Below are positions 13,627 through 18,284 of a DNA stretch of 64,000 nucleotides, piece by piece (position 1 is the stretch's first letter; each line of letters begins with the position of its first letter). This stretch comes from Leyella lascolaii (lineage in GTDB: Bacteria; Bacteroidota; Bacteroidia; Bacteroidales; Bacteroidaceae), in assembly GCF_900079775.1 (NCBI RefSeq), contig NZ_LT556044.1, positions 1,917 through 65,916 of the forward strand, given 5' to 3'. The notes beneath the pieces are model-generated. The model had not been told where the DNA came from, searched no databases, and saw only the letters and a list, made by a program, of their open reading frames with translations. Made by a program: the position numbers and the translations under genes.

Positions 13627-14490
13627 ATGAGACAACTAAAAATCACAAAATCAATTACCAACCGGGAAAGTGCTTCACTGGATAAATATTTGCAGGAAAT
13701 AGGACATGAAGAACTTATCTCGGTAGAAGAAGAGGCAGAACTGTCGCGCCGGATAAAAAATGGGGACAAGAAGGCTTTGGAAAAACTAACAAAAGCCAAC
13801 TTGCGATTTGTTGTATCTGTAGCGAAACAATATCAGAATCAAGGACTCAGTTTGCCGGATTTGATAAACGAAGGTAATCTGGGATTGATTAAGGCTGCAG
13901 AAAAATTCGATGAAACAAGAGGATTTAAATTCATATCATATGCCGTGTGGTGGATACGGCAGAGTATATTGCAGGCAATTGCAGAACAAAGTCGTATAGT
14001 CCGACTTCCACTGAATCAGATTGGCTCTGTGAACAAAATAAACCGTGTGCTGAATAAGTTTGAACAGGAAAACGAACGGCATCCAAGTATTGATGAAATA
14101 GCGGAAAAGGTGGATATTCCAGAAGACAAGATTATAGATGCAATGCAGATGAATAAGCGTCAGATCTCTGTTGATGCGCCTCTCGCTGACAGCGATAATA
14201 CGAGCTACATTGATATTCTGCCAAACAATTTGTCCACGAATACAGATAATAACCTTGTTCTACAGTCATTACGTGATGAGATTGCATGTGCGCTTAATGC
14301 ATTGAATGAGCGCGAAAAGAATGTAATTGAGGCATACTTCGGAATTAACCAGCCTGAATGTACATTAGAGGAAATCGGTCAAAAATATGGGCTGACCCGA
14401 GAACGTGTAAGGCAAATCCGAGAAAAGGCCATAAGGAAGTTGCGCCAAAACACAAAGAATAAAATTTTAAAAACATATCTTGGACAATAA
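13627..14490 (+). CDS. rpoD: Primary RNA polymerase sigma factor (sigma-70 / SigA of Bacteroidetes)
   Basis: The housekeeping sigma factor that directs RNA polymerase to TAnnTTTG promoters. It is 287 aa, the short form typical of Bacteroidetes, without the long N-terminal region 1.1 of proteobacterial RpoD. Visible regions: 1.2 ([10 protein letters not shown]), 2 ([29 protein letters not shown]; the melting motif [13 protein letters not shown]), 3 ([23 protein letters not shown]) and 4.2 ([28 protein letters not shown]). The start at 13627 ([10 protein letters not shown]) agrees with the family N-terminus and with the promoter position; an upstream start at 13585 would fall inside the -7 box. 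Confidence 0.95.
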
Positions 14491-14500
14491 AGAAAACAAT

Positions 14501-14935
14501 ATGAGAAACAAATTTATATATTTGGGGATTTTGTTTATTTTATTTTTCGTATTAACCATTAATGCAGCAAATAAGCGCACAAAACTCTATATGTACGGAG
14601 TTGTTACATCATTTAATGATTCAACAATATACTTTACGGATATTATGGAGATAGACTCTGTCTGGGTAGACAGTAAAACAGGATTCCTATACAGCAGAAA
14701 TAACTATTCGTATCAGTTGCGTAATTACATGAGAAATAAGGGAGTGGCATATCCGACATGCGTAACTTCCTATGCAAAAAAGAGAAAAGACATTGAGAAG
14801 AAGTATTCCAAGCTAAAGAAGAAATATATAAACAGCAAAGCTCTTAATATAAAATATATTCCGGCAAATGAGTTCAGGTATATACCTATAGTACCGGACG
14901 ATGTGGCTGCTGAGGAAAAAGAAGAAAGTAAATAA
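14501..14935 (+). CDS. Small exported protein of unknown function
   Basis: A 144-residue protein starting MRNKFIYLGILFILFF, with a hydrophobic signal segment (about residues 5-24) ending in INAANK. The remainder is basic and tyrosine-rich, with a charged lysine stretch (about 95-115) and an acidic tail (AAEEKEESK). No lipobox cysteine is present and I recognise no family. The start at 14501 is preferred over one at 14480, which overlaps rpoD, because the signal segment then begins close to the N-terminus. It is 10 bases after rpoD and 32 bases before the HprK-like gene, so it may share their transcript. Function unknown. Confidence 0.7.
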   Translation: MRNKFIYLGILFILFFVLTINAANKRTKLYMYGVVTSFNDSTIYFTDIMEIDSVWVDSKTGFLYSRNNYSYQLRNYMRNKGVAYPTCVTSYAKKRKDIEKKYSKLKKKYINSKALNIKYIPANEFRYIPIVPDDVAAEEKEESK

Positions 14936-14967
14936 TAAATATTATAATCTTTTTTTATTGAATAAAT

Positions 14968-15864
14968 ATGGAAGAGAACATTCATTATTATAGAATAGCA
15001 GAATATTATATAAAAATAAGTTTCAAAAAGTCTGATATTAATAATGAATATCTTCTTCCTTCTTTCTCTCCGTTCAAAACAGAGACAGCATGTGAAGAAC
15101 CTTTTTTTGAGCTTACTGTAGATGATTCTATTATCCCAATAGATAAAGATAATCTTGAAAAAATAGGAGATTTTGATACCGGTAATGGAATTATCTCTGT
15201 ATGTAAAAGCAAAGATGCATCTGGCACATACCAATATATCATAAATAACATAAATGGACACAACTGCTGTCTTCTTCAAGCCTACAATGATTTCTCATAT
15301 TGTAGATGCGCCCTAAATGGCAATACTAACATGAGAATGTTTGGCTTGAATAATGCACTTATGATTGTATTCGCTTTCAAAGGAAGCTTTAACAATACTC
15401 TTCTAATACATGCTTCGACTGTATGCCATAAAAATTACGCCTACGCATTTATCGCAAAGAGCGGAACCGGGAAAAGCACCCATTCCTCATTATGGCTCAG
15501 GTATATTCCCGAATGTGAGCTCATTAATGATGATAATCCTATTATAAGGATTATAGACGGAATACCATATTTATATGGAAGTCCGTGGAGTGGAAAAACT
15601 CCATGTTATCGTAACATAAAAGTTAAACTTGGTGGAATAACACGGATTGATAGAGCTGAGCGTAATAGTATAAATAAATTGTCGCCAACAGAAGCGTTTG
15701 CTTCGTTATTGCCATCATGTTCAACAATGAAATGGGATAAAGTTATATTTGGAAATATATGTTCTACCATTTCATTACTTATAGAAAGAACAAATATATA
15801 CACACTTCATTGTTTACCAGATAAAGAGGCTGCAGTAATATGCCACAGGACAATTTCGAAATAA
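14968..15864 (+). CDS. HPr kinase/phosphorylase-like P-loop protein (PqqD-associated type)
   Basis: A 298-aa cytoplasmic protein. Residues 145-298 resemble the HprK C-terminal kinase domain: LLIHASTVCH leads into a Walker A motif AKSGTGKS (163-170), then LINDDNPIIR and a GSPWSGKTP segment as in HprK-related proteins. The N-terminal ~140 residues match nothing I recognise. Similar stand-alone HprK-like proteins are found next to PqqD-type peptide-binding proteins and signal peptidases, and some phosphorylate RiPP peptides; that role is only inferred here. The last 25 bases overlap the S26 peptidase gene. No classical HPr or PTS gene is nearby, so a carbon-catabolite role is unlikely from context. 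Confidence 0.75.
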   Translation: MEENIHYYRIAEYYIKISFKKSDINNEYLLPSFSPFKTETACEEPFFELTVDDSIIPIDKDNLEKIGDFDTGNGIISVCKSKDASGTYQYIINNINGHNCCLLQAYNDFSYCRCALNGNTNMRMFGLNNALMIVFAFKGSFNNTLLIHASTVCHKNYAYAFIAKSGTGKSTHSSLWLRYIPECELINDDNPIIRIIDGIPYLYGSPWSGKTPCYRNIKVKLGGITRIDRAERNSINKLSPTEAFASLLPSCSTMKWDKVIFGNICSTISLLIERTNIYTLHCLPDKEAAVICHRTISK

Positions 15865-16313
15865 AGGAAAAATATTATTCAAATAATGTTTTCATTCCTG
15901 ATGTTGTTAAAATAATGGAAGAAGGACATACTGTAACATTGAAGTTACGGGGATTTAGCATGAGACCATTCTTGGAGGATAACAGAGACAAAGCACTTCT
16001 GACTAAAGCCCGTAATCTGAAACGTGGCGATGTCGTCCTTGCAGAAATAGCTCCAAGAGTGTATGTCCTCCATAGAATTATTAAGATTGAGTCAGACAAT
16101 GTTGTTTTACGTGGTGACGGAAATTTGAATTGCGAGTACTGTAAGATTGATGATGTGAAAGGATTCGCCATCGGTTTTTACAGAAAAGGAAGCTCCAGGC
16201 TTGATAAAACCAATGGATGGAAATGGATTGTCTATTCTTTTTTCTGGACAAGACTTATTCCTGTAAGACGTTATTTGCTTGCAATTTACAGAAGATGCAG
16301 AAAACTACAATGA
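15840..16313 (+). CDS. S24/S26-type serine peptidase (signal-peptidase-like)
   Basis: A 157-aa protein with the signal peptidase I fold signature: LRGFSMRPFL with the nucleophile Ser40, KRGDVVLAEI (about 61-70), YVLHRIIKI with His78 and LRGDGN (about 90-95). The serine-histidine pattern is nearer to SipW/ER-type enzymes than to the Ser-Lys bacterial enzyme. It lacks an obvious N-terminal membrane anchor; a hydrophobic stretch with tryptophans (about 128-150) near the C-terminus may bind membrane. It overlaps the preceding HprK-like gene by 25 bases, which indicates tight coupling. By analogy it could cleave a leader peptide; no substrate is visible nearby. Confidence 0.8.
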   Translation: MPQDNFEIKEKYYSNNVFIPDVVKIMEEGHTVTLKLRGFSMRPFLEDNRDKALLTKARNLKRGDVVLAEIAPRVYVLHRIIKIESDNVVLRGDGNLNCEYCKIDDVKGFAIGFYRKGSSRLDKTNGWKWIVYSFFWTRLIPVRRYLLAIYRRCRKLQ

Positions 16314-16388
16314 TTGTGATTTCATGTGACAGACTTTATTTTAATAATGTACAGTGAAGCAGTATTTTAAGAATATAAGAAATTACAG

Positions 16389-16431
16389 TGCCTGCCATCA
16401 TTGTCTGTATTTGATGGCAGGCATTTTATTT
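16389..16431. terminator. Terminator between convergent S26 peptidase and PqqD-like genes
   Basis: A perfect 12-bp stem tgcctgccatca / tgatggcaggca with an 11-base loop is followed by TTTTATTTT on the plus strand. It lies between converging genes. A weaker T-rich tail on the minus strand may let it work both ways. Confidence 0.85.
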
Positions 16432-16725
16432 TCACAGCATGTTCACCATTATTATACAGCCTCTACGATGCCTGGCGTCAATCCATTGCTTCACAAGATT
16501 ATTCGCGTCTTTTAGTGCAGTTTCTTTATCTACATCATACTGATTCGTAAGTAATTCAGCCAGATATTCAGCATCAAAATCCTTATCTTGTATTTCTTTC
16601 CACAGATAAGCAGAGCTTTCATTCATACTTATAATATTGCAGAAATCTATATTCTCTTTACCTTCTGCAACGATTATGTATTCACCGCAAACCTCTCTCA
16701 AATTAAAATCTTTCTTTATTCTCAT
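16432..16725 (-). CDS. PqqD-like peptide-recognition protein
   Basis: A 97-aa protein with the PqqD/RRE pattern: an N-terminal beta region with REVCGEYIIVAEG, a SMNESSAYLWKEI helix (the typical LNxxxAxLWxxl motif of the family) and a C-terminal helical part with LLTNQYDVDKETALKD. PqqD-like domains bind leader peptides of ribosomally made, modified peptides and deliver them to enzymes. It lies 29 bases after dnaB on the same strand and converges on the HprK-like/S26 pair. No radical-SAM enzyme, cyclase or precursor is seen in the window, so its partner is unknown. Confidence 0.8.
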   Translation of the reverse strand: MRIKKDFNLREVCGEYIIVAEGKENIDFCNIISMNESSAYLWKEIQDKDFDAEYLAELLTNQYDVDKETALKDANNLVKQWIDARHRRGCIIMVNML

Positions 16726-16754: not shown

Positions 16755-18284
16755 CTAAAATGGAACAGCGTCAAGACTGTCTGAAGGTAATGGATCAAAA
16801 GAATCAACACCACCATTTACTTTACTTCCAATAATCTCTGCGTCAAACGGTGCGTCCGCCTTATTGTATGACTTATCCGGATCCTGAAATCTGGTAAATT
16901 CTCCACGGAATTTTAAAAGCACATCCCCTGTCGCGCCTTTTCTGTGCTTGGCAATTATTATTTGCGCCATTCCTCGTAAATCGTTACCTTTATCGTCTTC
17001 GACAATATGATAATACTCTGGTCTGTGAACGAATAGAACCATATCTGCGTCCTGCTCTATAGCTCCTGATTCTCGCAAATCGCTCAATTGCGGTCTTTTT
17101 CCGTCAAGACCCTCTCGATTCTCTACGGTACGGTTCAATTGTGAAAGAGCCAGAATAGGAATGTCAAGTTCCTTTGCCAATCCTTTCAATGATTGGGATA
17201 TTTTAGAGACTTCTTCCTGTCGGCTTCCAAATCTCATGCCACTTGCATTCATCAATTGCAGATAGTCAATCATTATAATTTTAACTCCTTTTTCTCTTAC
17301 GAGTCGTCTTGCCTTTGTCCGCAATTCGAATATGGATAATCCTGCAGTGTCATCGATATATAAAGGAGCGCCTTGTAGCCTTCGTATGTTTTTGTCAAGC
17401 CTTTCCCATTCATCAGGAGACAGCTGTCCGTTTAACATTTTGTTTCCAGGTATTTCGCATACGTTTGAAATAAGCCTGTTCACCAATTGCACATTATTCA
17501 TTTCCAAAGAAAAGAAGGCAATGGGAGTCTGATAGTCAACAGCAATATTTTTCGCCAATGAAAGTGCAAATGAGGTCTTACCCATCGCAGGACGTCCTGC
17601 GATAATAATCAAATCGGAATTTTGCCATCCACTTGTTTTCTCATCCAACTTTGCAAATCCTGTCGGTACACCGGTAAGACCTCCACTGTTTGCCGATGCT
17701 TTTTGGAGTATTTCAACGGCTTTTGTAATGACCGGATCTATTTGAACATAGTCTTTTTTCATGTTTCTTTGAGACAACTCAAACAGACTACCTTCAGCCT
17801 CCTGCATCAGTTCATTTATGTCTACAGTCTCATCAAAAGCTTTCGTCTCAATGTTGCTCGCAAATGAAATCAACTGCCTTGCCAGAAATTTCTGTGCCAA
17901 TATGCGGGCATGATATTCTATATGAGCAGACGATGCGACGTGAGAACTTAGCTCTATTATATAAGCCGGACCTCCGACATCCTCCAAGGTTCCCTCTCTT
18001 TTAAGTTCCTCCGTAACACTCATTATATCAACGGGATATTCATTCATATTTAAAGAACGGATTGCCGTAAATATTTTCTTGTTACGAGGCTCGTAAAATG
18101 TATCCGGATTCAGAATTTCCGATATGACAGAAAACGCGTCTTTGTCAATCATCAGTGCTCCTAAAACAACCTTCTCTACATCCAATGCCTGTGGTTGTAA
18201 GTGTCCGTATGTGCTGTCAAATGATGACTTGGACTTGGATTTGTTCTTATTTATCTTTTCGTTATTTGAGCTCTTTTCGGGCAT
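16755..18284 (-). CDS. dnaB: Replicative DNA helicase DnaB
   Basis: A hexameric 5'-3' helicase of the replication fork (509 aa). After a lysine- and serine-rich N-terminal extension (residues 1-28) comes the DnaB N-terminal helical domain (about 30-135: QALDVEKVVLGALMID). The RecA-like domain has Walker A GRPAMGKTSFAL, Walker B VKIIMIDYLQLM, and the LSQLNRTVENR and DLRESGAIEQDADMV motifs. The C-terminal tail is acidic. No intein or insertion is present. Upstream, 74 bases away, is panD. Confidence 0.96.
   Translation of the reverse strand: MPEKSSNNEKINKNKSKSKSSFDSTYGHLQPQALDVEKVVLGALMIDKDAFSVISEILNPDTFYEPRNKKIFTAIRSLNMNEYPVDIMSVTEELKREGTLEDVGGPAYIIELSSHVASSAHIEYHARILAQKFLARQLISFASNIETKAFDETVDINELMQEAEGSLFELSQRNMKKDYVQIDPVITKAVEILQKASANSGGLTGVPTGFAKLDEKTSGWQNSDLIIIAGRPAMGKTSFALSLAKNIAVDYQTPIAFFSLEMNNVQLVNRLISNVCEIPGNKMLNGQLSPDEWERLDKNIRRLQGAPLYIDDTAGLSIFELRTKARRLVREKGVKIIMIDYLQLMNASGMRFGSRQEEVSKISQSLKGLAKELDIPILALSQLNRTVENREGLDGKRPQLSDLRESGAIEQDADMVLFVHRPEYYHIVEDDKGNDLRGMAQIIIAKHRKGATGDVLLKFRGEFTRFQDPDKSYNKADAPFDAEIIGSKVNGGVDSFDPLPSDSLDAVPF

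Follow-up and report, generated by a model that had tools for sequence, protein, structure and literature searches.

A conserved HprK-like kinase, S26 peptidase and PqqD-like protein in Bacteroidales, with candidate precursor peptides encoded elsewhere in the genome

The window analyzed here is a stretch of 64,000 nucleotides from Leyella lascolaii (contig NZ_LT556044.1), and all positions are counted from its first letter. Three small genes lie in it between those of an RpoD-type sigma factor (13627..14490, plus strand) and the DnaB helicase (16755..18284, minus strand), both recognized by Pfam and treated as context only. The first, on the plus strand at 14968..15864, encodes a kinase with a PEPCK/HprK-type fold, assigned from its open reading frame (ORF), its Walker A motif and an AlphaFold model. 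It is followed by an S26 protein resembling archaeal and SipW-type signal peptidases (15840..16313, plus strand), a putative leader peptidase recognized by S40, H78 and D93 and by sub-cut-off profile matches. The third gene, on the minus strand at 16432..16725, converges on both and encodes a PqqD-like RiPP recognition element (RRE), supported by PF05402 and a profile match to TfuB1. By comparison with the linear polyphosphorylated peptide (LPP) system, the three would have roles like those of LppK, LppS and LppB (or the B1 protein of lasso systems), respectively. Directly upstream, at 14501..14935 on the plus strand, is orf144, a core gene for a 144-residue exported protein with a hydrophobic N-terminus, again context only. 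The original prediction had described this arrangement from the letters alone, and the ORFs and alignments bear out its coordinates for the trio, the 25-base overlap between the kinase and S26 ORFs, the Walker A motif at residues 163-170 and the Ser40/His78 pattern. Among the neighboring ORFs there is no radical SAM gene, NTP transferase or MsbA-like transporter. An NTP_transf_5 gene of the host genome lies in a separate locus (L296, G000:C5:636000-652500) that reads, by eye, as an exopolysaccharide locus.

The Walker A motif of the kinase is well preserved, with G168, K169 and S170 present in 27/27 aligned relatives, and D188 and D189 are likewise invariant in all 27. The AlphaFold model has a pLDDT of 94.6 and adopts a PEPCK-type fold, aligning with the best PEPCK structure over 239 residues (Z 15.2, rmsd 3.6). 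This fold is common to PEPCK and HprK. At the level of sequence, the kinase reached none of the HprK-type family cut-offs: it scored 13.7 bits against TIGR04352 (HprK-related kinase A; cut-off 200) and had no match at E ≤ 1 to TIGR00679 (HPr kinase) or to ScmC of the SynChlorMet system. A sequence search of the PDB returned nothing below E 0.028, with one HprK structure at E 0.67.

The S26 protein matches Pfam S24 (E 3.3e-4) and TIGR02228, sigpep_I_arch (E 7.8e-5), both under the cut-off, and no N-terminal transmembrane segment was seen by eye. Its S40, H78 and D93 are invariant in 27/27 aligned relatives. The SipW-like peptidase LppS, an enzyme that cuts the leader only with the help of LppB, requires S29, H68 and D93 (PMC13381572, section 11).

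The PqqD-like protein matches PF05402 above the cut-off (E 4.4e-13). Its profile finds the lasso RRE TfuB1 best (E 8.3e-7) and LppB weakly (E 0.12). LppB binds a YxxP leader with N33 and D70 among other residues (PMC13381572, section 8), and in a hand mapping on the profile-LppB alignment (offset 18) these positions are taken by N35, found in 26/26 relatives, and D73, found in 25/26. Other pocket residues of LppB differ in the same hand-mapped alignment, with V35 falling on Ser37 and F74 on Leu77. The C-terminal residues encoded at 16432-16485 are out of register with most relatives, which end in the form A-G-I-I-E. The tail is a shifted frame, due to either a true late frameshift or a sequence error. 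The orientation of the gene also varies: in the first survey of rpoD-linked loci (L002-L022) it lies behind the S26 gene on the same strand in 18/21, and it is inverted relative to the kinase and S26 genes in 3/21, namely the window, L004 (758-1024) and L020 (2871-3143).

A first search found a kinase relative in 34/60 genomes. A scan of named genomes then gave at least 588 relatives, and the best 80 of these, a set that consequently leans towards close relatives, were taken for locus reading. All 80 are Bacteroidales by record title. In these best 80 loci the S26 gene follows the kinase directly in 79, the PqqD-like gene lies at most 3 kb downstream in 75 and orf144 is upstream in 73, and 70 of these nearest loci keep all four genes in the order orf144-kinase-S26-PqqD. 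The remaining ten comprise five at a contig end (L056, L095, L099, L109, L124), two that are rearranged (L072, L096) and three with no orf144 upstream (L106, L115, L118). Within 4 kb, an NTP transferase was found in 0/80 and a transporter in 2/80 of the same best-scoring loci.

Other cassettes, a second group, are not linked to rpoD; in the first nine of them seen, the kinases are 34-41% identical. Among the 38 non-rpoD loci read, the S26 gene is present in 36 and the PqqD-like gene in 37, and within 4.5 kb there is an ABC transporter in 29, an NTP_transf_5 gene in nine and a peptide of the family described below in nine. Kinase, S26 and PqqD-like genes thus form a conserved cassette whose order is kept in most relatives; loss of this co-conservation would have counted against the original prediction. 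Its reading of the trio as peptide-maturation enzymes also gains support, since elsewhere the trio is accompanied by an ABC transporter and at some loci also by an NTP transferase and YxxP peptides, matching the LPP set.

Several of these loci have features of their own. Three (L038, L039, L041) combine the trio with a YxxP or FxxP peptide and a radical SAM gene and look RiPP-like, the SPASM match in L041 being just under the cut-off. A clostripain-family (C11) lipoprotein-like peptidase (PF03415, E below 1e-40) is encoded between orf144 and the kinase in the distant relatives L100, L120, L126 and L130 and near the cassette of L042 (L042:4508-5782). Single open frames join S26 with NTP_transf_5 (L118:9905-11485) and a Pfam family 2 glycosyltransferase with an S26 profile match (L072:12474-13964).

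The upstream gene orf144 behaves differently from the trio. It occurs once in each of 199/199 genomes of the family, spanning 22 genera, and 38 of these genomes have no kinase. In the genus sample of 149 genomes, 146 have orf144 and 135 a kinase relative; of the 146, 104 carry the kinase no more than 3 kb from orf144, 30 only elsewhere and 12 not at all. We read 20 of the 42 loci without an adjacent kinase, and in 20/20 the sigma-orf144 pair is retained and followed by other genes. The trio is therefore an accessory behind a core pair, and orf144, suggested in the original prediction as a possible member of the group, falls outside the cassette. The protein has no YxxP near its start, and its model (pLDDT 87) gave no convincing fold match among solved structures (best Z 4.0).

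We looked for precursors beyond the locus. Peptides near some non-rpoD cassettes begin like MKKKYVKPTMEVYVLN...LLVGS, and a profile made from them picked up genes at scattered positions of the genome that contains the window. This first profile (A5) found peptides in 96/135 kinase genomes vs 4/14 kinase-less ones; it was replaced by a joint profile (A7) to which the peptides of the window's own genome had been added. With A7, the host genome yields 10 peptides at a threshold of E ≤ 0.01, or 11 when this is relaxed to E ≤ 0.02, all scattered small genes, so that the proposed genome search for short peptides co-occurring with the trio did yield candidates. Their leader, KKxYxxP...LLAGS, resembles that of the peptides beside some related cassettes. 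A [YF]xxP motif stands near the start in 34/35 distinct peptides from fetched loci (YxxP in 31), and 30/34 have a hydrophobic pair followed by Ser or Thr 18-20 residues after the [YF], counts that are partly built in because the peptides were found by profile. The rest of the peptide is variable and polar, often with a Trp-containing tail at the end. None of the tested peptides matched Pfam or NCBIfam above the cut-off, with one weak Pfam match below it. Three profile matches within the 64-kb window, at E 3.7 or worse, were rejected as precursors; when the ORFs searched there were reversed, none matched at E ≤ 0.05. The earlier observation that no precursor is visible thus stands for the window, while candidates are encoded in trans, and the precursors missing from the locus seem to be encoded elsewhere in the genome.

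Eight of the 11 host peptide genes are followed, at a distance of about 210 bases or less, by a gene on the same strand whose product starts, by eye, like a signal-peptide protein or a lipoprotein. A Pfam search of ten proteins near the peptides, including all eight downstream exported ones, gave two weak matches below the cut-off and none above it. In L273, L274, L275, L276 and L281 the peptide gene is followed by a large exported protein with no Pfam family above the cut-off. These downstream proteins are partly alike, with VYLYN...FLNAGG shared by L273 and L274.

Peptides and kinase co-occur across genomes, in tests scored throughout on the kinase alone of the trio. In the genus sample, 136/149 genomes hold peptides: 132/135 with a kinase vs 4/14 without (Fisher p 2.4e-10), with four genomes (G000, G007, G087, G121) matching by construction because they supplied part of the training peptides. 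The proportion is 102/104 where the kinase is rpoD-linked and 30/31 where, among the matches listed, it is found only elsewhere; this last class includes one genome without orf144 (G157), and two (G158 and G099) with one further kinase match each. In the family sample of 199 genomes, peptides are present in 123/161 with a kinase vs 2/38 without (p 1.3e-16), leaving 38/161 kinase genomes without a peptide, and the association holds within genera (stratified p 0.0015, permutation p 0.002). The exceptions run in both directions. Peptides occur without a kinase in G116 (13 peptides) and G032 (two), where the trio is missing from an rpoD locus that is itself present, and in G085 (four) and G127 (three), where orf144 was not found and the genomes may be incomplete. 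In G065, G133 and G167 the kinase is present and no peptide was found.

The association was also examined on a tree built with FastTree from sigma factor and orf144 sequences, midpoint-rooted and with a few very long branches. Of 118 genomes fetched, seven, including G116, had too little sequence to be used, leaving 111 of the 149. By parsimony, the kinase changes seven times and the peptides eight. The best of 200 random orders gave seven independent pairs, five concordant, two tied and none contrary, and the five informative pairs correspond to a one-sided p of 0.031. Losses are confined to a few clades on this tree, and shared ancestry matters to the association. Nine of the ten genomes without kinase and peptides have a peptide-bearing relative within a tree distance of 0.5, which makes lower sensitivity an unlikely cause of the absences. 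Trio and peptides tend to disappear together.

We consider it likely that the trio supplies shared maturation enzymes for the short precursors, whose genes are spread over some ten sites of the same genome. By analogy with LPP and lasso work, from which we infer binding, phosphorylation, cleavage, their order and the exact sites, the PqqD-like RRE would bind the leader at its Y-x-x-P stretch. The HprK-like kinase would then phosphorylate a core Ser or Thr, the probable target being the conserved residue that follows the Tyr by 19-20 positions. With the precursor held by the RRE, the S26 peptidase (Ser40/His78/Asp93) would remove the leader by cutting close to the [IL]-L-A-G-S junction, so that a polar, acidic linear peptide would be released. 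This product may act together with an exported protein, the gene of which often follows closely behind that of the peptide.

Alternatively, the trio could mature the adjacent 144-residue exported protein rather than the scattered peptides. The position of orf144 upstream of the kinase in most of the best 80 named loci, including loci without an adjacent sigma gene, speaks for this proposal; the presence of orf144 in kinase-less genomes, its retention at the 20 rpoD loci without an adjacent kinase, and a hydrophobic N-terminus of its own in place of a YxxP leader make it very improbable. A general cytoplasmic role near rpoD, such as protein phosphorylation or regulation, with the peptide association reflecting shared ancestry or lifestyle, would agree with the stable site of the trio beside core genes, with the lack of a cis exporter or precursor and with trio losses in a few clades. 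We regard this as unlikely, as related trios adjoin transporters and, in 9/38 loci, peptides, and as the peptide-kinase association persists within genera and in 5/7 independent pairs.

It could also be that the scattered peptides are the substrates and that their main modification is not phosphorylation, either because the kinase-fold protein transfers another group or because NTP_transf_5 completes the product. The kinase model does resemble PEPCK most, the host genome has one NTP_transf_5 gene (E ≤ 0.01) in what appears by eye to be a polysaccharide locus, and capsule loci are among the sites of LPP loci (PMC13381572, section 6). This is opposed by the finding that LppK and BsfK, which are comparable in role, phosphorylate Ser3 of the core (PMC13381572, section 7; PMC10368454, section 25), and we hold such a modification to be quite unlikely. 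The preferred reading thus remains that of shared enzymes phosphorylating and cleaving dispersed precursors.

If this reading is correct, LPP-type maturation extends beyond Bacillota to very common gut, oral and rumen bacteria, and an otherwise orphan-looking enzyme set gains candidate substrates in most genomes of the genus sample. Looking only beside the enzymes can miss precursors, for which co-loss across genomes was here the best clue. More tentatively, it is possible that in Bacteroidaceae, chiefly the Prevotella group, one fixed trio serves numerous dispersed precursors, often in a pair with a large exported protein, and that the phosphorylated linear peptides so made, with roles as surface ligands, signals or antagonists, are produced and lost as one whole repertoire.

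Among known systems, phosphorylated lasso peptides (paeninodin, Bsf) likewise use an HprK-like kinase and a PqqD-like B1 protein that binds YxxP or WxxP leaders. YxxP substitutions did not stop phosphorylation in one lasso system (PMC10368454, section 25), which counts against the preferred reading. They differ in having a B2 cysteine peptidase where the window trio has an S26 serine peptidase, and neither B2 nor the asparagine-synthetase-like cyclase was noticed by eye among the neighboring ORFs. Likeness to SynChlorMet is limited to a weak match of a non-rpoD kinase relative to ScmC (24.9 bits, cut-off 125) and, for the radical SAM protein of L041, a match to ScmF far under the curated cut-off. 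HprK is likewise a P-loop kinase, with different gene neighbors, and one non-rpoD relative scores 23.5 bits against TIGR00679 (cut-off 240).

The closest comparison is with the LPP RiPPs of Bacillota (LppA-K-B-S-D-N), published in May 2026 (PMC13381572) and described there as "restricted" to Bacillota in section 12 and "predominantly" so in section 6. Both systems have an HprK-like kinase, a discrete PqqD-like RRE with the leader-holding Asn and Asp, and a SipW/archaeal-type (SpI-like) peptidase with Ser, His and Asp, and the YxxP leader is common to LPP precursors and the trans-encoded candidates. A locus on a Butyrivibrio plasmid, with a kinase, a 57-residue YVKP peptide, a PqqD-like protein and an S24/S26 protein beside capsule-type genes, was matched by our profiles (kinase 110.6, S26 82.1, PqqD 73.0 and peptide 8.0 bits); its S26 protein reads GES where the window type reads GDG. 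Precursor, NTP transferase and transporter belong to the LPP cluster, whereas none adjoins the window trio, and such extras are present in part of the non-rpoD loci (ABC transporter 29/38, NTP transferase 9/38). The LPP leader consensus, YxxPxVLxHQxIxFETxxS, is shared by the host peptides only in YxxP and a later Ser/Thr, without HQ and FET. The window locus is consequently not filed as an LPP cluster. It also differs in that its candidate precursors are many and scattered, and its host belongs to Bacteroidota. In our paper searches, which covered few subscription journals, neither a Bacteroidota version nor an arrangement with dispersed precursors turned up. The module is therefore not undescribed, as had been proposed, in its combination of enzymes, which is published for Bacillota (PMC13381572); what is apparently new is the presence of LPP-like enzymes in Bacteroidota and the dispersal of their precursors. 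Judged by these likenesses, the window trio most likely works like LPP maturation, with its substrates encoded elsewhere.
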